From Cytophagaceae bacterium (GTDB lineage Bacteria; Bacteroidota; Bacteroidia; Cytophagales; Cytophagaceae), in NCBI GenBank assembly GCA_025454925.1, contig JALONM010000018.1, forward strand, positions 1 to 51,973: 51,973 nt of DNA, written 5' to 3'. The position numbers and the translations under genes are program-made. Positions 222 to 39,100 of this stretch are shown one piece after another. The number at the start of each line of letters is the position of its first letter. Within the stretch, counting starts at the first letter, position 1. The notes below the pieces were generated by a model. That model was not told the origin of the DNA. It was given only the letters and a program-made list of their open reading frames with translations, and did no database searches.

Positions 222-653
222 TCAATTTGACAAGGAGTCCAGTTTGGATTTATATGCCAAGGCATGCAATTTCATATTCTTAACCATGGACGACAATCCG
301 TTGGAACGCGTCATGGAAAGATGCTGACGCATCCCTATCTTTTCAATAAAATATGGTTCTACCTGAATGATTTCATCGGGGGTTCTACCTGAGTAGGTCT
401 TCAGCAACAAACTGATTAATCCCTTTACGATGATGGCGTCACTGTCGGCCTCAAAAAATACCTGCCGGCCTTCTAATCTTGATACCATCCAAACTTTGGA
501 TTGACACCCTCTTATCAAATGAGCATCCAACTTAAACTCTTCAGCGAGTCCGGGAATTTTTTTTCCCAGCTCAATGATGTAGGCATATTTATCATCCCAT
601 TCCTCCATCAGAGAAAAGTCATCAATGATTGTATCTTGTATTGAATCGTTCAT
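222..653 (-). CDS. sufE: SufE cysteine desulfurase activator / sulfur acceptor
   Basis: The product is about 143 residues, the usual SufE length. It takes persulfide sulfur from SufS onto an active-site Cys and passes it to the SufBCD scaffold. The motif LIRGCQSKVWM carries that Cys. The ORF is open upstream to a TTG at 686, but the first ATG (653, protein starting MNDSIQDT) fits the family N-terminus better, so 653 is chosen. It lies between sufS (51 nt upstream with this start) and the DUF59 gene (13 nt downstream) in the suf operon. No residue typical of the family appears to be lost. Confidence 0.93.
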   Translation of the reverse strand: MNDSIQDTIIDDFSLMEEWDDKYAYIIELGKKIPGLAEEFKLDAHLIRGCQSKVWMVSRLEGRQVFFEADSDAIIVKGLISLLLKTYSGRTPDEIIQVEPYFIEKIGMRQHLSMTRSNGLSSMVKNMKLHALAYKSKLDSLSN

Positions 654-704
654 GAGTTGTATGAAACCTATTGACTTTGATTGCAATCAAAGTCGGTAGC
701 CCTA

Positions 705-1937
705 TTATTTTAACATTTTAATCGACTTCTTCAAGGCTAATTCCAGCGCATCAATTTCTTCACGGGTATTGTATATTGCAAAGGAAGCCCTGCTGGTACC
801 TTTCAAGCCCATGCGATGCATAAGAGGCATCGTGCAGTGGTGGCCGGTTCGAATGGCAATTCCTGCCTGGTCCAGCAAAATACCAAGGTCCTGGTGATGC
901 ACTCCTTCCACTATAAAAGAGCAAATGCTTACCTTGTTTTTGGCTGTGCCTATCAATTTTATTTCCGGAAATTGAAGAAGTCGTTCAGTGGCATACTGAA
1001 GCAAATCATCTTCGTGTGCACGAATAGATTCTTTTCCGATTTTATTGATAAATCGAATGGACTCTGCCAGCGCAATAGTATCGGCGATGTTAGGAGTACC
1101 GGCTTCAAATTTATAGGGTAGCTCATTGGTGGTAAAACCATCGTAGCGCACCTCTCCTATCATTTCTCCCCCGCCCATATAGGGTGGCATTTCAAGCAGT
1201 AATTCTTTTCTGCCATACATTACCCCAATACCTGTAGGCCCGTATATTTTGTGACCCGAGAAAACAAAGAAATCCAATTTCCATTCTTCTACATTAATAT
1301 CGAGATGTGAGGCCGATTGTGCACCATCTACAACAACGATTGCTCCTACTTGGTGAGCGGCCTCCGTAATATGCTGAATGGGATTGACGGTACCCAAGGC
1401 ATTGGAAGCATGGACCACCGATACGATTTTGGTTTTTTCAGAAAGAAGAGAATGAAATGCCTGAATGTCGAGTTCACCGGCTTCGTTAATAGGAATGATT
1501 TTTAGCGTGGCTTCTTTTTCGGTTGCCAACATTTGCCAGGGAACCATATTAGAATGGTGTTCCATGGCCGACACCAGAATTTCATCCCCTTTGCGCACCC
1601 GTTGTTTGCCAATGGTAGCCGCAATCAGATTAATACCTTCTGTGGTTCCTCGAGTGAAAATTACTTCTTCCCTATGTCTTGCTCCAATAAACTGACGTAC
1701 CTCGTCGCGGGTTGTCTCGAACGCCATGGTAGCGCGCTCTGCAAGCGTATGAATGCCTCTGTGAATATTGGCATTGTCATTTTTATAATATGCCACCAAT
1801 GCTTCGATGACTGAAGCTGGCTTTTGCGTGGTAGCAGCATTATCGAGGTATACGAGAGGCTTTCCATGTACTTGCTGATGCAGTACAGGAAATTGTTCAC
1901 GTATGGCTTTAATATCGATCACTTCCATTTGTTGCAT
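705..1937 (-). CDS. sufS: SufS cysteine desulfurase (class V aminotransferase fold, PLP)
   Basis: A 410-residue, full-length group II cysteine desulfurase. It removes sulfur from L-cysteine to give alanine and an enzyme persulfide. Visible motifs are YLDNAATTQKP near the N-terminus, the PLP-contact stretch AMEHHSNMVPWQ, the PLP Schiff-base Lys in FSGHKIYGPTGIGV, and the catalytic Cys in RTGHHCTMPLM near the C-terminus, where SufS proteins have a short loop. The ORF begins MQQMEVIDIKAIREQFP; either Met1 (1937) or Met4 (1928) could start it. It lies 72 nt downstream of sufD and upstream of sufE, its partner. Confidence 0.97.
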   Translation of the reverse strand: MQQMEVIDIKAIREQFPVLHQQVHGKPLVYLDNAATTQKPASVIEALVAYYKNDNANIHRGIHTLAERATMAFETTRDEVRQFIGARHREEVIFTRGTTEGINLIAATIGKQRVRKGDEILVSAMEHHSNMVPWQMLATEKEATLKIIPINEAGELDIQAFHSLLSEKTKIVSVVHASNALGTVNPIQHITEAAHQVGAIVVVDGAQSASHLDINVEEWKLDFFVFSGHKIYGPTGIGVMYGRKELLLEMPPYMGGGEMIGEVRYDGFTTNELPYKFEAGTPNIADTIALAESIRFINKIGKESIRAHEDDLLQYATERLLQFPEIKLIGTAKNKVSICSFIVEGVHHQDLGILLDQAGIAIRTGHHCTMPLMHRMGLKGTSRASFAIYNTREEIDALELALKKSIKMLK

Positions 1938-2009: not shown

Positions 2010-3257
2010 TTATTTCAGCAAGCGCTTTTCAATTGCTTCCAGAAGCAATGCCCGCAAATCATCGAACTCTACTTTTTCCAGAATATCATTGGCAAAGGCT
2101 TGCATAAGCAACGCTTTGGCTTGTTCTTCTCCAATACCACGGGCTCTCATGTAAAATAAGGCCGACTCGTCGAGCTGACCGGTAGTAGCACCGTGAGAAC
2201 ACTTTACATCGTCGGCAAAAATTTCCAACTGTGGTTTGGTGTTAATTTTTGCATCCTGACTTAACAATACATTTTTATTGGACTGAAAAGCATTGGTTTT
2301 TTGAGCGTCCTGACGAACAAAAATTTTACCGTTGAATACCCCCGTAGAAGAGCCATCGAGGATTCCTTTATACAATTCATTGCTGAAACAATGCGGTACC
2401 GCGTGATCGGCAATGGTATGGTTATCTATATGTTGTTCCCCACCCGACATATACAAGCCATACATGTGTCCTTCGGAATGTGGTGCTTTAAATATCAAAT
2501 GAAAATTATTTCGAATTAAAGTCCCTTGTAAGCTAATGGTAACGCTGTGTGAAGTACTTTTACCCAAGTGCACCACTTCTGTCGTTCCCACATGATGGGC
2601 ATCTCCTGTATCTTGTTGTATTTTATAATAGGAAAGATGCGCATCCTGCTCTAATAAAGCCTGGGTAAAGTTATTCGAAAATGAACTCAGCGACCCAAAT
2701 GTGTGAAAACTTTCTATTAGGCTAAGTCTGGCATTTTTTTCTACATGAACCAACAAGCGTGAAGCGGAGAATACCTGTTTCTGAGAGGCATCCAAAAGAT
2801 GTACGAGGTGAACTGGCTTGTCTAAGGATTTTCCGGCAGGCAAACGCAAGACAATGGGATCATCGCTGACAGCCACATTGAGCTGAGTCAAAGGATCTTG
2901 CTGAGCCAGGGAAGGTGCGTTCCAGAAACTATTCTGAATACTTTCTGGGGCTGCCGACAGACGGGATACCTGAATAGTGTCTGGTAGTTGATGACTGCTC
3001 AACTCTCCATTCACTAAAATGATGGTATAGGCATCTACACGATTTAGAATTTCCAATCCCGGAACCTGGATCGTAGTATTTTTTATCACCTGAAAATTCT
3101 GGGAATCCAGATTTTGCAGACTGGTATATTTCCATTCTTCATCTTTCAGTCCGGGCAATCCAGATTTTTCCAGCGCATTCCAAGCGGAGGTACGCTGTTC
3201 TATCCAATTTTGCTGAGCCTGAAAGGCTGGCTTTAAGGCTTGTAAAAGTGTACTCAT
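2010..3257 (-). CDS. sufD: SufD scaffold subunit
   Basis: A 415-residue protein paralogous to SufB. It forms the SufBC2D scaffold on which Fe-S clusters are built. The C-terminal half has the beta-helix pattern of the SufBD core, including IFVRQDAQKTNAFQSNKNVL, the segment KINTKPQLEIFADDVKCSHGAT, and the Gly-Gln-Leu-Asp-Glu element that follows. The N-terminal region (WIEQRTSAWNALEKSGLPG...DEEWKYTSL) is also typical. It starts 7 nt after the sufC stop, so translation is probably coupled. Its position between sufC and sufS is the common Bacteroidota order. Confidence 0.95.
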   Translation of the reverse strand: MSTLLQALKPAFQAQQNWIEQRTSAWNALEKSGLPGLKDEEWKYTSLQNLDSQNFQVIKNTTIQVPGLEILNRVDAYTIILVNGELSSHQLPDTIQVSRLSAAPESIQNSFWNAPSLAQQDPLTQLNVAVSDDPIVLRLPAGKSLDKPVHLVHLLDASQKQVFSASRLLVHVEKNARLSLIESFHTFGSLSSFSNNFTQALLEQDAHLSYYKIQQDTGDAHHVGTTEVVHLGKSTSHSVTISLQGTLIRNNFHLIFKAPHSEGHMYGLYMSGGEQHIDNHTIADHAVPHCFSNELYKGILDGSSTGVFNGKIFVRQDAQKTNAFQSNKNVLLSQDAKINTKPQLEIFADDVKCSHGATTGQLDESALFYMRARGIGEEQAKALLMQAFANDILEKVEFDDLRALLLEAIEKRLLK

Positions 3258-3264
3258 GCTCGTT

Positions 3265-4020
3265 TTAAACGGTTACGTTTTCTGCTTTAATCCAATCGTA
3301 TCCTTTTTCTTCCAGCTCCAATGCCAGTTCCTTAGGACCCGTTTTTACAATGCGACCATTGTACAAAACATGCACAAAATCAGGTACTATATAATCCAGC
3401 AATCGTTGGTAGTGCGTAACCACAATAACAGCGTTTTCGCTGGTCTTTAATTTATTAACCCCATTGGCCACAATTCTCAAGGCATCGATATCCAGGCCGG
3501 AATCGGTTTCGTCGAGCACAGCCAGTTTGGGTTCCAGCATAGCCATTTGAAATATTTCGTTTCTTTTTTTCTCTCCTCCGGAAAAACCTTCATTGAGCGA
3601 ACGTTTCAGTAAGGACTGATCAATTTCTACCAATTCCATTTTTTCCTTCATGAGTCGAAGAAAAGAAGGGGCGTCCAACGGATCTAAGCCTCTGTACTTG
3701 CGTACTTCATTTACCGCGGTTTTCATAAAGTTGATCGTACTTACACCTGGTATTTCTACCGGGTATTGAAAAGCAAGAAAAACACCTTCTCTGGCCCTGT
3801 CTTCCGGGCTTAATTCCAGTAATTCTTTTCCAAGAAAATCTACAGAACCACCTGTAATTTCATAGTCTTCTCTTCCAGCCAGCACCGATGCCAGTGTACT
3901 TTTTCCGGCACCGTTAGGTCCCATGATCGCATGCACTTCGCCTGCTTTCACTTCGAGGTGTAAGCCTTTCAGTATTTGTTTGCCATCTACCGAGGCTTGG
4001 AGGTTATTGATCTTTAACAT
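3265..4020 (-). CDS. sufC: SufC Fe-S assembly ATPase
   Basis: A 251-residue ABC-type ATPase that drives conformational change in the SufBCD scaffold. The Walker A GPNGAGKST lies near residues 34-42. The SufC-type signature FSGGEKKRNEIFQ, Walker B LAVLDETDSGLD (with the D-E-T-D-S-G-L-D form typical of SufC) and a switch His in VVTHYQRLL are all visible. It follows sufB by about 50 nt and precedes sufD by 7 nt. Nothing is unusual for the family. Confidence 0.97.
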   Translation of the reverse strand: MLKINNLQASVDGKQILKGLHLEVKAGEVHAIMGPNGAGKSTLASVLAGREDYEITGGSVDFLGKELLELSPEDRAREGVFLAFQYPVEIPGVSTINFMKTAVNEVRKYRGLDPLDAPSFLRLMKEKMELVEIDQSLLKRSLNEGFSGGEKKRNEIFQMAMLEPKLAVLDETDSGLDIDALRIVANGVNKLKTSENAVIVVTHYQRLLDYIVPDFVHVLYNGRIVKTGPKELALELEEKGYDWIKAENVTV

Positions 4021-4070: not shown

Positions 4071-5516
4071 TTATCCTACACTTCCTTCTAAACTTACTGC
4101 TAATAGCTTTTGTGCTTCTACAGCAAATTCCATTGGAAGTTGATTCAGTACTTCTTTACAATAGCCGTTTACAATCATTGCCACAGCTTGCTCAGTATCG
4201 AGTCCGCGTTGGTTGCAATAAAAGATCTGGTCTTCTCCGATTTTAGAAGTAGTAGCTTCGTGCTCCACCGTAGCGGTAGAGTTATCGACTTCTATGTATG
4301 GAAATGTGTGTGCTCCGCACTGATCGCCCATAAGAAGGGAATCGCATTGTGAAAAGTTACGTGCGTTATCAGCACGTTTACTTACTTTTACCAATCCACG
4401 ATACGAGTTTTGGCTTCTCCCAGCAGAAATCCCTTTGGATACGATACGACTGCGTGTATTTTTTCCAAGGTGAATCATTTTGGTACCTGTATCGGCCTGC
4501 TGCATGTTGTTGGTTACAGCCACCGAATAAAATTCTCCTACAGAATGATCTCCTTTAAGAATTACAGAAGGATATTTCCAGGTAATAGCAGACCCTGTTT
4601 CCACTTGTGTCCAGGAAATTTTAGCGTGGGCTCCGGCACAAATACCTCTCTTGGTTACGAAATTGTAGATTCCACCTTTGCCGTCCTTATCACCAGGATA
4701 CCAGTTTTGAACGGTAGAATATTTTATTTCGCTTTTCTCCATCGCTACGAGCTCTACTACAGCGGCATGCAACTGATTTTCATCGCGCTGCGGAGCGGTG
4801 CAACCTTCCAGATAACTTACATAACTGCCTTCATCGGCGACGATAAGTGTACGCTCAAACTGTCCAGTGCCGGCAGCATTGATTCGGAAATACGTGGAAA
4901 GTTCCATCGGACAACGAACCCCTTTCGGGATGTAGCAAAAGGAGCCATCGGAAAATACTGCGGAGTTTAGAGCGGCGAAGTAATTGTCTGTAGCCGGAAC
5001 AACCGTTCCCAGGTATTTCTTCACTAATTCCGGATGCTCATGCACCGCTTCACTCAAGGAACAAAAAATAATTCCCAGCTCAGCTAATTTATCCTTGAAA
5101 GTGGTTTTAATGGAAATAGAGTCGATAACAGCGTCAACAGCAACCCCCGAAAGGCGCTTTTGCTCGTCGAGACTAATGCCTAACTTTTCGAATGTAGCCA
5201 ACAATTCCGGATCTACTTCATCCAAACTATTGAGTTGCTTCTTAGGCTTGGGTGCGGAGTAATAAATAATATCCTGGAAGTTAATTGCCGGATATTGAAC
5301 ATTAGGCCATGCAGGCGCTTCCATTTTTTGCCAAAGGGCAAAGGCTTTCAGCCTCCATTGCAGCAACCAATCTGGTTCGTTCTTTTTATTAGATATAAAG
5401 CGTACTATGTCCTCGTTCAGCCCTTTCGGAGCTGAATCGTTCTCCAGAGGTGTCACAAACCCGTATTTATACTCCGAGGAGGTGACCTCTTCCAGAACCT
5501 TCAAACTATCTCCCAT
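4071..5516 (-). CDS. sufB: SufB scaffold subunit
   Basis: A 481-residue SufB, the first gene of the suf operon. It carries nascent Fe-S clusters in the SufBC2D complex. Diagnostic stretches include [66 protein letters not shown] and the C-terminal [15 protein letters not shown] and [20 protein letters not shown]. The start [11 protein letters not shown] at 5516 is the only ATG near the expected N-terminus. The 96-nt gap upstream holds a possible -7 element and a palindromic candidate operator (listed separately). Confidence 0.97.
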
Positions 5517-5528
5517 ATCAGATTCTAA

Positions 5529-5545
5529 TTTAGACTAAGTCCAAA
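5529..5545. promoter_or_regulatory. Palindromic candidate operator in the suf leader
   Basis: TTTAGACTAAGTCCAAA is an 8+1+8 inverted repeat with one mismatched pair. It lies between a candidate -7 element (5554-5561) and the sufB start at 5516. Its half-sites, TTTAGACT and AGTCCAAA, are almost the same as those of the palindrome upstream of the DtxR-family regulator at 25086 (TTTAGATT and AGTCTAAA); the spacing differs by 1 nt. A repressor site here would lie at or just after the transcription start. Binding is inferred. Confidence 0.45.
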
Positions 5546-5553
5546 TGACTTTA

Positions 5554-5561
5554 CAAAAATA
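5554..5561 (-). promoter_or_regulatory. Candidate -7 element of the suf operon
   Basis: On the minus strand TATTTTTG matches the Bacteroidota -7 consensus TAnnTTTG exactly, 38 nt upstream of the sufB ATG. No TTG is seen at the usual distance upstream, so only half of the promoter is supported. Confidence 0.4.
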
Positions 5562-20506: not shown

Positions 20507-21403
20507 TCAGTTTATCCCAATAGCCTTAGTACCGGTATTTTCTTTGGTGAGAGGAATGGTTTTGTTTAATAAGCGTTGAGACAAAAAAGCTACTAAAAAA
20601 AACAGGCCTGCCACACAGGTCATACAACCCGCAATGGAAGCGTCGAGCCAATAGGCAAGGTAATATCCGCCCACAGCACTGAATAAAGCGATCAATGCCG
20701 CCAGAACCAGCATGTGTGATAAACGTTGGGTAAGCAGAAAGGCTGCTGAGGATGGAACAACCAAAAACGCTACTACTAAAATGGCCCCTACCGCTTCAAA
20801 TGAAACAACAGTGGTAAAAGACACCAGCGACATTAAAAGATAGTGCCATACGCTCACCGAGATTCCTAATGAAACAGCAAAGCCAGGATCGAACGTGCAT
20901 ACTTGCAGTCTGCGAAAAGCCAGAACAATGGCCGTCAGGACCAACAGAAGCATAACTACCGCATTGTACATAGCCATGGGGCCGATGGCTTGTTTTCCCC
21001 AATACAAACTTTGCAAAGGCAAATGCACCATTTCGCCGTACAATACGCATTCCTGATCGAGGTCAATATTTTCTGCATACGCAGAAATGATAATAACACC
21101 GATGGAAAAAAAAGCCGTAAAAACCAATCCGATAGAGGCATCCTCCTGAACACGCATTCGCTGATGTACCTGTTCAATCAACAAGGTAGTTAGAATACCA
21201 AATGCGGTAGCGCCAAGCAGCATGACCCAGGAATCGCGACTATTGGAAAGTAAGTAGGCGATGGCAATACCAGGAAGCACGGAGTGTGAAATGGCATCCC
21301 CCATCATGGCCATTTTTCGAAGTACCAAAAAGCATCCCAACAAGGCACATGTAATTGCGATGCAAGATGCGGTAAATACAATGATAAAATCTGAGAAATG
21401 CAT
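20507..21403 (-). CDS. Metal ABC transporter permease (ZnuB/MntB-type)
   Basis: A 298-residue inner-membrane permease of the ABC-3 family. It has about eight hydrophobic segments and the family motif GDAISHSVLPGIAIAYLL near the N-terminus. AVGAILVVAFLVVPSSAAFLL and AYWLDASIAGCMTCVAGLFFL are also typical. It passes Mn, Zn or Fe ions across the membrane with the ATPase and binding protein encoded upstream. It begins 4 nt after the fused permease, forming a two-permease transporter as in TroCD or SitCD systems. The metal cannot be told from the sequence. Confidence 0.93.
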   Translation of the reverse strand: MHFSDFIIVFTASCIAITCALLGCFLVLRKMAMMGDAISHSVLPGIAIAYLLSNSRDSWVMLLGATAFGILTTLLIEQVHQRMRVQEDASIGLVFTAFFSIGVIIISAYAENIDLDQECVLYGEMVHLPLQSLYWGKQAIGPMAMYNAVVMLLLVLTAIVLAFRRLQVCTFDPGFAVSLGISVSVWHYLLMSLVSFTTVVSFEAVGAILVVAFLVVPSSAAFLLTQRLSHMLVLAALIALFSAVGGYYLAYWLDASIAGCMTCVAGLFFLVAFLSQRLLNKTIPLTKENTGTKAIGIN

Positions 21404-21407
21404 AGCC

Positions 21408-22700
21408 TTAGTTTATAGGTGGAATTTCAGATTGATGCGGATCCAGGGAAGGATCTTTCAATTGTTCCAATAGTTTTTTTTCTAGTTCTTCGGTGATTAA
21501 GTGCTCCATACTTTCGGCATCGTCGTGCACATGATCGGGAGCAATGTTTACTACCTGGGTGAGATAGGTTTCCCAAAGCCTGTGCCTCCGTGTTATAAGA
21601 CTTCCTTTCCGAATACCTTCTGCAGTTAATTGAGCTTCCCCCTGTTCCCAAATCACGTAACCCTGGTGGTGCAAGCGTTGCAAGATGCGTGAGGTATAAA
21701 CAGTAGCGTAGGCCCGTCGCGAGAAGATATCTTCAAGGGTGTAGGTTTCCTGAAAGCTATTTTCCTTTTCGCCTAACTGATACATGGCTTTGAGTACATT
21801 TTCTTCCGCAGTTTTCCGTTTCAAAATCCTGGCTTGCCACCATTTCCAAACAATGCCTCGCTGAGGTGCTACCAGAAAGGAAAGTAAGGCCATCCCAGAA
21901 AGCACTACCACGATCCAAGGTCCAGTAGGCATATTGGGCGCCAGAAAGGATATATAGGCCCCAGCCACCGAAGCTATCATAGAGAACACAACAGATAGAA
22001 TTAACATTCTAAAAAGTTGATTCGTCCAAAAACGAGCTATGGCAGCAGGAGTAATCAGCATGGCGGACATTAAAACTACACCAACCGTTTGGATGCCCAT
22101 TACTATTGACATCACCATTAATGCAGTTAGAATATATTCCAAACGTTGAACGGGAAGGCCAATGCTTTGGGCAAATCCCGGATCAAAACTGAAGAGTGTA
22201 AATTCTTTGTAAAAAGCATACACCATGAACAACATGACCACTGCCACGATAGACATTACCCAAACATCTGAGGGCATAAGCACCGCAGCTTTTCCAAACA
22301 AAAAAGCATCCAATCCGCTCTGTGAAGCATTGCCCTGATGTTGAATAAAGGTGAGCAACACTACTCCCAGTCCAAAAAAAACAGACAGCACAATTCCGAT
22401 GGATGCATCCTCTTTTAATTTGGAATGCTTGCTGATGTACTGCACACACCAGAGGCTAAGCAAGCCGCTTACAAAAGCACCTGCCATAAGGGACCAAATT
22501 TCTTTTTGCCCAGAAATTAAAAACGATAGGCACACACCTGGTAATACTGCATGAGAAACGGCATCTCCGGCCAAGGCTTTTTTACGCAGTAAGGAAAACG
22601 TTCCGATCACTGCTGTGCTCACCGAAAGCAATAACATTCCCAACACAACATAGCGTACATTAGGATCCTGCAAGGAAAAAAACCTAACAATAGTTTCCAT
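21408..22700 (-). CDS. Metal ABC transporter permease fused to a C-terminal DtxR-like domain
   Basis: A 430-residue protein from the ATG at 22700, which lies 11 nt after the ATPase stop; the frame is open further upstream but would overlap that gene. Residues of about 1-285 form an ABC-3 permease (KKALAGDAVSHAVLPGVCLS; TVGVVLMSAMLITPAAIARF). Residues of about 305-430 resemble an iron-dependent repressor: a winged-helix segment starting AEENVLKAMYQL, then LTAEGIRKGSLITRRHRLWE and DHVHDDAESMEHL. The positions that bind metal in DtxR/MntR (His and Glu of HRLWE, His of VH, Glu of AE, Glu-His of MEH) are all present. The tail may sense cytoplasmic metal and gate the transporter, or bind DNA from the membrane; both are inference. 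Confidence 0.9.
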   Translation of the reverse strand: METIVRFFSLQDPNVRYVVLGMLLLSVSTAVIGTFSLLRKKALAGDAVSHAVLPGVCLSFLISGQKEIWSLMAGAFVSGLLSLWCVQYISKHSKLKEDASIGIVLSVFFGLGVVLLTFIQHQGNASQSGLDAFLFGKAAVLMPSDVWVMSIVAVVMLFMVYAFYKEFTLFSFDPGFAQSIGLPVQRLEYILTALMVMSIVMGIQTVGVVLMSAMLITPAAIARFWTNQLFRMLILSVVFSMIASVAGAYISFLAPNMPTGPWIVVVLSGMALLSFLVAPQRGIVWKWWQARILKRKTAEENVLKAMYQLGEKENSFQETYTLEDIFSRRAYATVYTSRILQRLHHQGYVIWEQGEAQLTAEGIRKGSLITRRHRLWETYLTQVVNIAPDHVHDDAESMEHLITEELEKKLLEQLKDPSLDPHQSEIPPIN

Positions 22701-22710
22701 ACGAATGTGC

Positions 22711-23499
22711 TTAGGATTCCCGCACTGGGAATTCATTTTTATGAACCAATTCACTCATTTTGCTAAGGAGCGTAAGCTTACCACCAAAGGTGCGCTGCAA
22801 TAATTCTTCCTGAAATACCTCCTCGGTTTTGCCTGAGGCCACCAATCGCATATTCAGCAACAATACCCAGGAAAAATATTCCTTTACCGATTGCAGGTCA
22901 TGATGAACAACGGCCACCGTTTTGCCGCGTGTCACCATGGATTTCAATATGTCCATCAGGATCGCCTCCGTGGATGCATCGACTCCTGCAAACGGTTCAT
23001 CCATAAAATACAAATCCGCATCTTGGGCCAATGCGCGCGCCAGAAAAACACGTTGTTGCTGGCCGCCCGACAATTGGGCAATCTGACGATGTGCAAAATC
23101 TGCCATGCCAACTTTCTCCAAACAATTCATGGCCATTTCTTTGTCTGCCTTACGGGGACGGTTGAATAATCCCAACTTCCCATACCTGCCCATTAACACT
23201 ACGTCGTAGGCGGAAGCAGGGAAATCCCAATCTACCGACTCGCGCTGGGGAACATAACTTACTCGATTTCTAACCTCTGAGAGCTCTTTACCAAATAATT
23301 TACTAAACCCACTGGAATGTGGAATTAAACCCATGATGGTTTTGATCAGGGTAGATTTTCCAGCTCCATTGGGACCTAATATTCCCACCAATGCCCCTTG
23401 CGGCAAGGTGAAATCGACACCCCAGAGTACCGGCTTTTTATGATACGATACGGTGAGATCGTGCACCTCTACCACTGGATTTTCTACGTGAGTAATCAT
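22711..23499 (-). CDS. Metal ABC transporter ATP-binding protein
   Basis: A 262-residue ABC ATPase that powers import. Walker A is GPNGAGKST, the signature LSGGQQQRVFLARALAQ, Walker B DLYFMDEPFAGVD, and the switch His is in VVHHDLQSV. The segment QRESVDWDFPASAYDVVLMG is typical of Mn/Zn transporter ATPases (TroB/MntB/ZnuC group). It starts 5 nt after the binding-protein gene and is followed by both permeases. Confidence 0.95.
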   Translation of the reverse strand: MITHVENPVVEVHDLTVSYHKKPVLWGVDFTLPQGALVGILGPNGAGKSTLIKTIMGLIPHSSGFSKLFGKELSEVRNRVSYVPQRESVDWDFPASAYDVVLMGRYGKLGLFNRPRKADKEMAMNCLEKVGMADFAHRQIAQLSGGQQQRVFLARALAQDADLYFMDEPFAGVDASTEAILMDILKSMVTRGKTVAVVHHDLQSVKEYFSWVLLLNMRLVASGKTEEVFQEELLQRTFGGKLTLLSKMSELVHKNEFPVRES

Positions 23500-23504
23500 G
23501 TTTT

Positions 23505-24416
23505 TTATAATAATGCGTTCACTATCGTTTCTACATTTTTCTTCACCATTCCTGAATACGTTCCTTCTGGAGTACCAGTAGCTCCCATGGCATCGGAATA
23601 TAAGCTTCCTCCTAATTTTACCTGATGGCCCTTGCTATTGCAGCCTTGCAACACAGCCTGTATGGATTTGTCGGATACCGAGGTTTCGGTAAAAATGGCA
23701 TTGATTTTTCTCTCTACTATAAAATCGACCAAGGTAGTTACATCGTTGAGACCATAATCGGAAACGGTGGATAATCCTTGTAAGCCACGCACCTCCATTT
23801 GATAGGCTGCACCAAAATACCCGAACGCGTCGTGGGCAGTAATGAGCACACGTTGAGGAGGAGGAATGGCAGACAAGGACGTTCGGACAAGCGAATCAAG
23901 CGCAAGAAGTTCCCGTTGATACATCTGATGTCGCTGTAGGTAGTCTGCACGGTGCAACGTATCGGCTTGAGATAATTGCTTAGCAAGATGTGCAACGGCT
24001 TTAGACCAAAGCTTTACATCAAACCAAATATGCGGATCAGAAACCTTGGCTCCCAGCATTCTCAGGCTGGACGGATCAATACCGTCGGAAGCGGCAATTA
24101 CAGTTTTATGCGCCGACAAAGCTTCCAGCACCTCGGACATTTTCCCCTCCAGGTGCAGGCCGTTGTAAACAATAATATCCGCATCTTGTAATTTTTGTAA
24201 ATCACCTTGTGTGGCTTTGTATAAATGAGGATCCACGCCAGGCCCCATGAGGGCAATGACTTCAGCATCCGGCCCGGTGATTTGTTGCACCGCGTCCGCC
24301 AGCATGCCAGTGGTGCAAACGACCATCAAGCGTTCTTTTTTCTCCTGCGCCTGGGTGCAGGCACTCATGAACGCCAGCCAGACACTACACCAGATAAATA
24401 TTTTTGGCCACTTCAT
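23505..24416 (-). CDS. Metal-binding lipoprotein of the ABC transporter (TroA/ZnuA family)
   Basis: A 303-residue cluster A-I substrate-binding protein, membrane-anchored through the lipobox MSAC. The four expected metal ligands are visible: His in GPGVDPHLY, His in VSDPHIWFD, Glu in AIFTETSVS, and Asp in GGSLYSDAMG. The long His-rich loop of ZnuA proteins is absent, which favours Mn or Fe over Zn but does not prove it. Its start lies within the last 32 nt of the DtxR-family gene. It hands the metal to the two permeases encoded downstream. Confidence 0.94.
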   Translation of the reverse strand: MKWPKIFIWCSVWLAFMSACTQAQEKKERLMVVCTTGMLADAVQQITGPDAEVIALMGPGVDPHLYKATQGDLQKLQDADIIVYNGLHLEGKMSEVLEALSAHKTVIAASDGIDPSSLRMLGAKVSDPHIWFDVKLWSKAVAHLAKQLSQADTLHRADYLQRHQMYQRELLALDSLVRTSLSAIPPPQRVLITAHDAFGYFGAAYQMEVRGLQGLSTVSDYGLNDVTTLVDFIVERKINAIFTETSVSDKSIQAVLQGCNSKGHQVKLGGSLYSDAMGATGTPEGTYSGMVKKNVETIVNALL

Positions 24417-25041
24417 AACTTATGGTTGTTTTTTTACTTTTTGCAATTTCTATTTCAAAGGAAGAATCAAACTCTACGATGGATACAATCTTAATGGAAG
24501 TACCAATCCCGATACCCAGATGATCAAGGTATCGAAGAAAGGAGCCTGAACTCTCTTTCAAACAACTTACAACACCCTTCACCCCCACCGCTAATTCAGA
24601 GAGCAGTCGTTGCTGACGCTTTGGAAGTTGCCCCTTTTCATTTGGAATGGGATCACCGTGGGGATCGTATTGAGGGAAATCTAAAAAAGCATCCAAGCGC
24701 TCAATCAACAAAGGTGATTGAATATGTTCCAGTTGTTCTGCAATTTCGTGTACCTGATCCCAGGTAAGTTGAAGCTTTTCTACCAGAAATACTTCCCACA
24801 AACGATGCTTTCGAATAATTTGTAAAGCCACCTGTGTTCCAGACTCGGTAAGCGTAACTCCTTTGTATGGTTTATAATGCACCAACTTCTTTACCGAAAG
24901 TTTTTTTAACATATCGGTAACAGAAGCTGCCGAAAGCTGCGCAGATTCTGCCAAATCATTGGTAAACACCTCTTCTTGCAGAGCTGATAAATGATAAATA
25001 GCCTTCAAATAATTTTCTTCAGTATAACTTAAAGGAGTCAT
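24385..25041 (-). CDS. DtxR/MntR-family metal-dependent repressor
   Basis: A 218-residue regulator from the ATG at 25041 (another ATG at 25056 adds five residues). The winged helix is in TEENYLKAIYHL and LSAASVTDMLKKLSVKKLVHY. The metal-binding and dimer domain has IIRKHRLWEVFL and DQVHEIAEQLEHI. His and Glu of HRLWE, His of VH, and Glu-Glu-His of AEQLEH are kept; the DtxR Cys position is Glu, as in MntR. The MntR Asp8 and Glu11 positions appear to be Asn and Lys, so the metal is uncertain. A C-terminal SH3/FeoA-like part follows (GIGIGTSIKIVSIVEFDS). First gene of the transporter operon; a DtxR-box-like palindrome lies 45 nt upstream. Confidence 0.93.
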   Translation of the reverse strand: MTPLSYTEENYLKAIYHLSALQEEVFTNDLAESAQLSAASVTDMLKKLSVKKLVHYKPYKGVTLTESGTQVALQIIRKHRLWEVFLVEKLQLTWDQVHEIAEQLEHIQSPLLIERLDAFLDFPQYDPHGDPIPNEKGQLPKRQQRLLSELAVGVKGVVSCLKESSGSFLRYLDHLGIGIGTSIKIVSIVEFDSSFEIEIAKSKKTTISYEVAKNIYLV

Positions 25042-25085
25042 AAAAATCACTCTCATTTATTTATTAGACAATATATGCATTCTTT

Positions 25086-25105
25086 TTTAGATTAGTCTAA
25101 ACTAT
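25086..25105. promoter_or_regulatory. DtxR-box-like operator upstream of the metal transporter operon
   Basis: TTTAGATTAGTCTAAA (25086-25101) is a near-perfect 16-bp palindrome. Read as the 19-mer TTAGATTAGTCTAAACTAT (25087-25105) it agrees at 15 of 19 positions with the classical DtxR/IdeR consensus TTAGGTTAGCCTAACCTAA. It lies 45-64 nt before the regulator's start and overlaps a near -7 element, so autoregulation of the whole operon is likely. The suf leader has a similar palindrome at 5529. Confidence 0.7.
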
Positions 25106-36160: not shown

Positions 36161-39100
36161 ATGAAATCTTTCAGAACCTTACTTCAGGGAGTCCTTTTTT
36201 TTACCCTATTCTATAATGTATGGGGTCAAACGGCAAATGTTACGCAAGGCTGTGTACCACTGGTTGTAAATTTTACGCCACCAGGCGCACACCCCAGTTA
36301 CTATTGGGATTTCGAAGGCGCCGGGACCTCGGTGTTATCCAACCCCTCTCCTACGTTTATATTACCTGGCACCTATACTGTATCTTTCAGAGAAACCCCA
36401 GGGGGGCCGGTAATAGGTAACACCATCACTATTACTGTATTTCCTGACCCTACGGTATCCCTTGTTACACAGCCAGGTTGTGCCCCCTACAATGCTTCAA
36501 TTACTGCCCAAATAACAGCAGATCCCGCAATTTCTATCAGCAGTTACACCTGGTTTTACGGAGATGGTACTTTTTCAACCACGAGTGGTACGAGCACCAC
36601 ACACCTTTACTCCACCACTGATCTTTTTGACATATCGGTACAAACAGCCACCAATTTTCCAACTTGTAACAACACTTATAATTTTATTGATAAACAAGAA
36701 GTGGTAGACAAACCTGTTGCTTCGTATACTACCAATCCTACTAGCTTATCCAGTTGCACGAATTCCCTTAGCAATGTTGCATTTACCAACACCTCTACAG
36801 GTTCTAAGACCATGACATACAATTGGACTATGGGCAACGGAAATACCTATACGACAACCAATCCTCCCAATCAAAACTATACTGGACCGGGTACATTTAC
36901 CGCATCTCTTACTACCGACTTTGAAAACTTTTCAGGTTGCGCCGTAACCTTTTCCCGGCAGGTTTCTTTAGGAAAACCGACTGTAGACCTTCAGCAATCG
37001 GCTACAGTGGCGTGTGTGGGAGCTCCCATTTCATTTAATACCACCAATGGAGGATCTTTATCCTGGACATTTGGAGCAGGAGCCAGTGTGGCTAACAGCA
37101 CAGTAGCCAGCAATTCGATATCCTATAGTTCCCCCGGTAAAAAGGATATCGTATTAACGGTGAACCTTGGAGGTTGTTCGTCCACCAAATTAACTTCTAT
37201 TACTGTTGATCAGGTTGTAGCTACTGCCACCAGCAGCCCTGATTATACCTGTAGTTCTCCTACGGTATTTAATTTCAATGCCACCTCCAACCAAAGCAAC
37301 GTAACCTACAACTGGACCATCTCACACGGCCACAAAACCTATACCGGCACAGGCCCTAATTTCAGCAGATCAATCAAAAGCAATCTGGATTCTATTTATT
37401 ACTCAAAAAACTACACCCTACCTTATTTTGGTGAGGCTATATCCACTACCCTGGTAGTTTCCAGTAATGTAAGTTCCTGTAGTGCTACCGTTTTGCTTAC
37501 AGACACCATGTGGTTGCCTAACGCTCGATTTGTCGTAAACCGCTCGCAGGGTTGTGCTCCGCTTACCGTAAACTTCACGGACTCCAGCAATTCTTTTAAA
37601 CCCCCATTAACACAATGGAAGTGGATCTGGGGGGATGGAAATCCAAATACCGTCAACAGTAGCAATGTTTCAACCAACCACACCTACACCGTGCCTGGCA
37701 TCTACTATCCAAGGCTGGAAGTGAGAACCAGCAACGGATGTTTGGATACCTCCTATGCCATCAAGATTGAAGTAGGACAAGATCTTACCTCGCAACTTGA
37801 TTTTACAGCTACTCCTTCTTCCATTTGCGTTGGACAATCGGTAACATTGGCACCTTCCATCAGCCTTGCTACTGCGTCTTTGATTGATGCCTATCATTAC
37901 TACGGCGAAAGCAGCCGGGTTTCACATTGTGGAACGGTTCCGACTGTAAACTGGACCTTCGATGACACAGTAGGGGTATTGCCTGTTACCTTACAAGTGG
38001 ATTATAATGGCTGTATGACTTCAGTAACAAAAAATAATTTGATTACAGTCAATGGAGCCAGCGCCCGCATGAATTACACTTCTGATTGCGCTACTCCTTT
38101 GGTATATAATTTCACCAGTACTTCTGTCGGAGGAAGCGGCGCTACCTTCTCCTGGGATTTTGGAGATGCCACTTCTGCCAGCGGCAGCAGCACCAGCCAT
38201 ACCTATGCACGGGGAGATTACGATGTGGTACTTACCGCTACCAAAGATGGCTGCTCCCACTCTAAAACACGAAGAATCAACGTACGAAATTTACAAGCAG
38301 CTTTTCAAGTACCGAATCCCAAAGAAATTTGCATTAATATTCCTTATCAATTTAATGCCACTGCTTCGCAAGACGTTTACTCCAATTGCTACCAGGGATA
38401 TATGTGGGAGTTCCCTACCATAGGCCGTCGCAGGCCTTCCGACAGACCTACCCCATTGCCTAACTTTAGTTTCGATACCTCAGGGATACACCAGGTAAAG
38501 CTGGTGGTAAAAGATGTGAATGGCTGTGTAGATTCCGTAAAACACGACATTAAAGTGTTTGACATGCAATTGAACGCCACCATTAGCGATGATTTTATAT
38601 GCTTGCCTTCCACTGTAAATTTCAACGATGTTTCGATCGGAGATACGACCTTGGTTACCCGCAACTGGGCCTTTGGAGACGGAGGAACAGGTATCGGTAC
38701 CAACGTCAATCATACCTACACCACTCCTAACCTATTAAATCCGAATGCCTACACGATTACCTTAACTGTAACCGACGAGCTTGGTTGCGTTGAAAACCGA
38801 AACTTCACCATCAATCTCTACAGGCCTGTTACCAGCATTTCTATTCTTAATCCTACCACTCTCATTAAGGATACCATGTTATGTGTCGGAGATAATGCCT
38901 TTATTACCGCCCCGGATTTCACCTTGGGAGGTTACAACTTATCTTATGCCTGGAATTTCAATAATGGCAATACCAGCACCACGCAAAACAATACCCAGCA
39001 ATTTAATTTAGACCAATTCTACACCATCAATTTAACTTTTACGGAAGATAGTACCGGATGCACGGGCAGTACTTCCGCCTCGCTGAATGTTCAGGACTAT

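Follow-up and report, generated by a model that had tools for sequence, protein, structure and literature searches.

In E. coli, the suf operon is repressed by Fur, with IscR and OxyR also acting there, and DtxR, IdeR and MntR proteins recognize operators made of the TTAGG-N4-CCTAA units of the tox box. Few tested iron regulons were found for Bacteroidota in the literature searched, and no study of suf regulation by Fur in this phylum was recognised among the open-access papers searched. According to Guo et al. (2017), the Fur box of Riemerella anatipestifer (Bacteroidota) is ATTTAGAATTATTCTAAAT, purified Fur binds four promoters in EMSA, and several of the 11 tabulated boxes, including that of the EMSA-tested sprT, fit the consensus poorly (PMC5609570). 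When iron is present, loss of fur lowers feoA and feoB (−2.25 and −2.22, respectively), the opposite of what simple repression would give (PMC5609570). A 2024 paper gives ATTTAGAATTATCCTAAAT before rhuB together with EMSA (PMC10986502), and another R. anatipestifer paper names an E. coli-type box, GATAATGATAATCATTATC (PMC7976709). For metal importers, the Chlamydia YtgABCD system includes YtgCR, a fusion of permease and repressor (PMC6504234).

The window, i.e. the whole stretch of 51,973 nucleotides analysed here (contig C87 of the genome G000), contains a suf operon, with the gene order sufB, sufC, sufD, sufS, sufE following a palindromic box, and a metal importer operon headed by a regulator gene (table 1). 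The initial annotation had described palindromes with the same half-sites in the two leaders and had suggested that a single DtxR-family repressor controls metal uptake and Fe–S assembly together. Positions and spacings of both palindromes were borne out: TTTAGACTAAGTCCAAA lies at 5529-5545 in the suf leader and has 17 bp with a central base, and TTTAGATTAGTCTAAA lies at 25086-25101 in the importer leader and has 16 bp with no central base. The suf palindrome extends to a 19-bp 9-1-9 repeat at 5528-5546 and is better read as this 19-mer than as the 17-mer.

Table 1. Features of the suf and importer regions (coordinates refer to the window).
Feature	Coordinates	Strand	Evidence
sufE	222..686	-	Pfam SufE
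sufS (cysteine desulfurase)	705..1937	-	reading frame; named by eye
sufD	2010..3257	-	reading frame; SufB query also matches, E 8.5e-14; named by eye
sufC (ABC ATPase)	3265..4020	-	reading frame and sequence; named by eye
sufB	4071..5516	-	NCBIfam PRK11814, TIGR01980 above cut-off
Fur-type box (putative), 19 bp, 9-1-9	5528..5546	-	gene-strand sequence ATTTGGACTTAGTCTAAAT; 16/19 vs published R. anatipestifer Fur box
Bacteroidota -7 promoter element (putative), TATTTTTG	5554..5561	-	sequence
second importer permease	20507..21403	-	Pfam ABC-3
permease fused to C-terminal DtxR/MntR-like domain	21408..22754	-	Pfam ABC-3 (31-295), Fe_dep_repr_C (377-445)
ATPase of metal ABC importer	22711..23499	-	Pfam ABC_tran
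metal-binding protein of ABC importer	23505..24416	-	Pfam ZnuA
stand-alone DtxR-family regulator, MntR-like	24385..25056	-	Pfam Fe_dep_repress, Fe_dep_repr_C, FeoA (C-terminal)
DtxR/MntR-type operator (putative), 16 bp, TTTAGA-N4-TCTAAA	25086..25101		sequence, leader comparison, matrix score

With E. coli the suf locus would share the action of Fur on suf, as proposed here, and it differs in the sequence of the box. The importer site shares the spacing and nearly the half-site of the DtxR, IdeR and MntR operators, from which the suf site differs by one extra base between the arms. On its gene strand, the suf box agrees with ATTTAGAATTATTCTAAAT at 16 of 19 positions, and it resembles the R. anatipestifer boxes in being a 19-bp 9-1-9 repeat, in lying less than 100 bp from the start codon and in occurring at iron-uptake genes too (PMC5609570). 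It differs in that suf is absent from the table of 11 R. anatipestifer Fur boxes and responds to iron there also without Fur, since limiting iron raises sufB and sufD both in the wild type and in the fur mutant (1.87/1.85 in the table for sufB and 1.56/1.78 for sufD, which can be taken as ratios or as log2; PMC5609570). Like Chlamydia YtgABCD, the importer operon of the window encodes a permease that carries a DtxR-like domain as a fusion, and it differs in being headed by a separate stand-alone MntR-like gene (PMC6504234). The best match to this permease fusion reaches residue 440-446 in 18 of the 19 family genomes, with four of these 18 rows showing one stop within the aligned stretch, and ends at residue 303 in the remaining genome (G010).

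Chance expectation was assessed in the window and in the genome to which it belongs (4.52 Mb, 99.84% complete). The classical DtxR box is TWAGGTTAGSCTAACCTWA, and the agreement of the importer site with it at 15 of 19 positions, as initially annotated, was confirmed and is the top score within the window; the suf site agrees at 11 of 19. Genome-wide, the suf site is the sole one-mismatch match to TTTAGACTNAGTCTAAA (the 17-bp form), which has zero exact matches, and the importer site is the sole exact match to TTTAGAYTARTCTAAA (the 16-bp form); in the window, ATTTAGAHTNADTCTAAAT at up to two mismatches has one match where 0.04 are expected. At up to three mismatches, neither short form is enriched in this genome over its reversed control (91 versus 140 for the 16-bp form, 24 versus 50 for the 17-bp form), so that a regulon could not be defined from the two short words by themselves; as search patterns they were too loose at this stringency and were replaced by the 19-mer. 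Both sites are real, beyond chance. The next-best matches in the window are an odd-spaced one at 39006-39024 (14/18) and an even-spaced one at 24670-24685 (one mismatch).

The odd-spaced box, i.e. the TTAGA-N5-TCTAA type, precedes sufB in all 19 family genomes, with 13-17 of 18 positions matching and 6-23 nt from the start; the best even-spaced score in these 19 leaders is 9/12. In the window, the box matches 15 of the 18 non-central positions of ATTTAGAATNATTCTAAAT and lies close to the ATG of sufB (11 nt for the 19-mer, 12 nt for the 17-mer), in both respects as expected of a Bacteroidota Fur box. The -7 promoter consensus of Bacteroidota is TAnnTTTG, and visual inspection shows a T-rich -7-like element at the matching place in the family suf leaders. 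As the suf box starts 7 nt past TATTTTTG, it would cover the transcription start predicted by position.

A wider sample consisted of the nearest named sufB loci (the best 80 of 585), which place the window genome in the Bacteroidota, near the Cytophagales; their titles are mostly Bacteroidota, with a few from elsewhere (Ignavibacteria, Planctomycetota, Akkermansia and others), and one locus (L114) apparently lies on the same contig as one of the family set (L035). Among these best 80 of 585, TTAGA-N5-TCTAA with at most one mismatch was found within 250 bp in 31 leaders, against a mean of 1.2 and a maximum of 4 in a Markov control, and the corresponding form with N4 in 0/80; when spacings from 1 to 10 were compared at this stringency, only 5 stood out. 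The full box at 14/18 or better within 100 bp occurs in 26/80 of the same leaders (control mean 0.6, largest 3; reversed box 6/80). By these counts, more than half of the sampled sufB loci are without the box, and the Aquimarina, Polaribacter and Muricauda suf leaders in the sample show none. In several Cyclobacteriaceae (L143, L144, L153, L156, L161), an exact TTAGA-N5-TCTAA lies approximately 237 bp before sufB and a weaker box also at about −27.

The same box is found at feoA, in 15 of the 16 loci where FeoA has a reading frame of its own, at 14-16/18; it lies 1-4 nt from the start that was used, right at an element resembling TACCTTTG or TAAATTTG. The feoA gene of the window genome (G000:C37) has it at 14/18. 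Three genomes (G001, G010, G011), in which the FeoA domain was found solely at the end of a DtxR protein, were left out of this count, the single miss is L253, and for L253 and L255 no ATG was found by the script. Across the 19 family genomes, ATTTAGAHTNADTCTAAAT with at most one mismatch has 88 sites versus 8 for the reversed pattern, and in the window genome 8 versus 0. These eight sites fall at seven loci, suf among them, the others being a gene for a DUF4856 lipoprotein (two sites), hemA, genes for a TonB-receptor plug protein and a response regulator, a multihaem cytochrome gene in an operon resembling alternative complex III, a gene for a succinate-dehydrogenase-like cytochrome b (Pfam match below cut-off), and a gene for an ECF sigma factor with a lipoprotein. 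Neighbours were read at 58 partly overlapping loci, i.e. the listed part of the 88 sites plus those of the window genome, with gene names mostly assigned by eye. Among the matches listed for relatives are imelysin (L219, L222 by Pfam; L235 by eye), DUF4856 (L230 by Pfam, others by eye), a TonB receptor with AraC (L226 by Pfam, others by eye) and hemA (L233, by eye); several listed sites (e.g. L201, L202, L207, L224) have no clear gene within reach. Taken together, this gene set looks like an iron regulon by its sequence neighbourhood, and iron-uptake genes of the window genome itself (feoA and the genes for the TonB-receptor plug protein and DUF4856) carry the box. At the cytochrome gene, the box lies approximately 110-200 bp upstream in six genomes (L250, i.e. 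G000:C16, and L199, L213, L228, L237, L239; alternative-complex-III-like operon, mostly by eye), a greater distance than at suf and feo, and there it might be in an activator position.

Three Fur-family genes are present in the window genome. One of them (C28) scores above the Pfam cut-off for FUR, with NCBIfam Fur models remaining below theirs, and has purA downstream, so a Fur protein is encoded; the second (C99) is PerR-like with a peroxiredoxin gene adjacent downstream, and the third (C123) is short and histidine-rich. The single Fur of Flavobacterium psychrophilum also has purA downstream (PMC9331221). At the Fur loci compared, purA lies on the same strand in 9 of 10, and the tenth holds a peroxiredoxin gene. 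In one family genome (G009, 99% complete), a purA-linked Fur is the sole Fur-family match, yet 13 odd-spaced boxes are present.

On the importer side, the regulator starts at 25056 or 25041, which puts the site 29 or 44 nt upstream, respectively, and its gene overlaps the ZnuA-type gene, the first of the metal ABC importer. NCBIfam MntR models score below their cut-offs for the regulator, and the top NCBIfam model for the ATPase is a Mn importer ATPase, also below its cut-off. The importer site has the arms of a DtxR/MntR operator four apart before a DtxR-family gene and matches at 12/12. In the family, TTTAGR-N4-YCTAAA is found at 11-12/12 in the 120 bp before the start of 22 of 27 stand-alone DtxR-family genes, and the odd-spaced box reaches at most 14/18 in these leaders. 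The 27 come from 30 PF01325 loci, of which L082, L092 and L093 (weak matches, proteins of approximately 160 aa) were dropped; eight further PF01325 rows came without a locus, including the C65 gene of the window genome, which was read separately. Three stand-alone DtxR genes score above the Pfam cut-off in the window genome, and of its six exact even-spaced sites, three precede these three genes (C46, C65, C87). One-mismatch matches at C76 and C99 were set aside, as the nearby genes have, by eye, no link to metals. Over the 19 family genomes, exact even-spaced sites are not enriched (78 versus 85 reversed), so the DtxR/MntR regulon would be small. At the order level, where 21 of 30 MntR loci were counted (for nine no start was found), arms at 11/12 or better stand 4 bp apart in 12/21 leaders and 5 bp apart in 1/21, with 6/21 coming from the family; outside the family, the 4-bp gap is found in 8/15.

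Two matrices, built from 36 odd-spaced (Fur-type) and 23 even-spaced (DtxR-type) sites of other genomes with the window genome excluded, separate the two sites in both directions. As a Fur-type site, the suf site scores 23.4 bits (training median 23.9) and ranks first of 51,955 window positions; as a DtxR-type site it scores 2.9 bits and ranks 65th in the window. Conversely, the importer site scores 22.7 bits as DtxR-type (training median 20.5), rank 1 of 51,958, and 8.8 bits as Fur-type, rank 3 in the window. Among relatives, 15 of 18 suf boxes were scored, the remainder being copies of these, and each scores higher with the odd matrix (8.6-24.5 bits) than with the even one (−2.1 to 7.7 bits), with the proviso that some of the odd training sites had been selected by the pattern itself, which favours it; 12 of the 15 are below the lowest Fur-type training score of 21.0 (8.6-18.9 bits), mostly owing to a weak left arm. 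At suf, the arms TTTAGR / YCTAAA are five bases apart and not four as in a DtxR/MntR operator. The initial annotation had treated the 1-nt difference in spacing as a caveat; each spacing is conserved on its own side. Judged by sequence, the two sites belong to two codes, one with a spacing of 5 bp and the other of 4 bp.

Very probably, therefore, the suf palindrome is a Fur box and the importer operon is under the control of its own MntR-like regulator via the even-spaced site. In iron-replete cells, Fe(II)-Fur would sit on 5528-5546, over the transcription start as judged by position, and keep sufBCDSE repressed. Once iron becomes scarce, Fur would come off its site, and suf would be made along with feoAB, TonB receptors and the products of other genes with the odd-spaced box. 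The importer operon would be controlled by the DtxR-family regulator of 24385-25056 through 25086-25101. We infer the binding protein, the repression and the iron response from the sites, their conservation, the spacing classes, the neighbouring genes and the agreement with the published box. The two sites would look alike because both regulator families use a near-identical half-site (TTTAGA / TTTAGR), differing in spacing.

Of the initial proposal, two parts stand: a metal-regulator-type site does precede suf, as its box is conserved and fits the published Fur box, and a DtxR/MntR-type operator does precede the regulator–importer operon, given the even spacing before 22/27 DtxR-family genes. 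What finds no support is the single DtxR-family repressor for both, because the spacing classes separate, the matrix scores split both ways and the odd-spaced box is of the published Fur type. It would be very improbable that such a protein, be it the MntR of the window or one of the other two stand-alone DtxR proteins, binds both sites by tolerating spacings of 4 and 5 bp: the nearly identical half-sites, the 15/19 agreement of the importer site with the classical DtxR box and the three stand-alone DtxR genes speak for it, but even-spaced scores do not exceed 9/12 in any of the 19 suf leaders, order-level MntR leaders have a gap of 4 in 12/21 and of 5 in 1/21, the suf site has 2.9 bits and rank 65 under the DtxR-type matrix, and exact even-spaced sites are unenriched (78 versus 85 reversed in 19 genomes), with three of the six in the window genome at DtxR genes. 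The second DtxR gene (C46, TTTAGGTTTGCCTAAA) was considered as a link between the two sites and dropped, its site being even-spaced too. These sequences are best read with suf under Fur and the importer under MntR, two switches being likelier than a shared one.

Whether Fur itself or a relative reads the suf box is a separate matter. The PerR box is TTATAATNATTATAA, which differs from TTAGAATNATTCTAA at one base per half, and the genome encodes both the PerR-like (C99) and the histidine-rich (C123) paralogue, either of which could be the reader; this is unlikely, however, as feoA, TonB-receptor and imelysin genes share the box type and look like an iron regulon, and as G009 keeps its suf and feo boxes with only the purA-linked Fur, provided that its assembly is complete for paralogues. 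Rrf2-family proteins often control suf or isc, and one is present in 18/19 family genomes, so that an Rrf2/IscR-like Fe–S sensor might be invoked at suf; we consider this highly improbable, because the Rrf2 protein at C72 scores 77.4 bits, well short of the IscR cut-off of 207.55 bits, TTAGA-N5-TCTAA with one mismatch lies upstream in only one (L106, approximately 190 bp before the match) of ten loci (L104-L113), and the box is common to iron-uptake genes and fits the published Fur box. A chance match could appeal to the abundance of short AT-rich palindromes and to the lack of enrichment of either short pattern at three mismatches, but it has practically no weight given that 19/19 family genomes have an equally spaced box in the corresponding position and that 0.04 matches are expected in the window.

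If Fur reads suf and MntR the importer, a shared half-site does not imply a shared regulator where spacing classes are conserved separately, and a tempting inference is thereby corrected. At the same time, suf and feoAB of a Cytophagales-type family would be placed in one Fur-type regulon, whose box can be scanned for in other Bacteroidota. We tentatively suggest, at somewhat less than even odds, that a single base pair of spacing is what keeps Fur and DtxR/MntR control apart on the near-same half-site TTTAGA. Near-identical half-sites with spacings of 5 and 4 bp offer a simple example in which specificity through spacing can be tested; if this is true, a single indel could transfer a gene between the two metal regulons, and sites of intermediate form could respond to both regulators.

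Some further observations concern the distribution of MntR and of even-spaced sites. The MntR query has no match in four of 79 order-level genomes, three of which (G021, G040, G055) belong to one genus and are 100% complete; elsewhere the query picks up the permease fusion as well. Within 400 kb of sequence from these three genomes, neither a suf or feo orthologue nor a box at up to two mismatches was seen. The sequence TTTAGAATACTCTAAA is identical in five genomes (G000, i.e. L010 at C57:8320-8335, and G005, G006, G007, G008) and lies inside a 270-aa reading frame in G000, so this may be coding conservation. Finally, with ispG leaders read at 13 of 18 loci, that of the window genome not among them, an exact even-spaced DtxR-type site recurs between an SDR gene and ispG in eight genomes (L302-L308, L311) and is TTTAGATTAGTCTAAA in five of them; it lies 94-172 bp upstream of ispG in G002, G003, G004 and G009 (L302, L303, L307, L311) and approximately 740-940 bp away in G005-G008 (L304-L306, L308). 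By its sequence context, ispG, the gene of a 4Fe-4S enzyme, is a possible second DtxR target.
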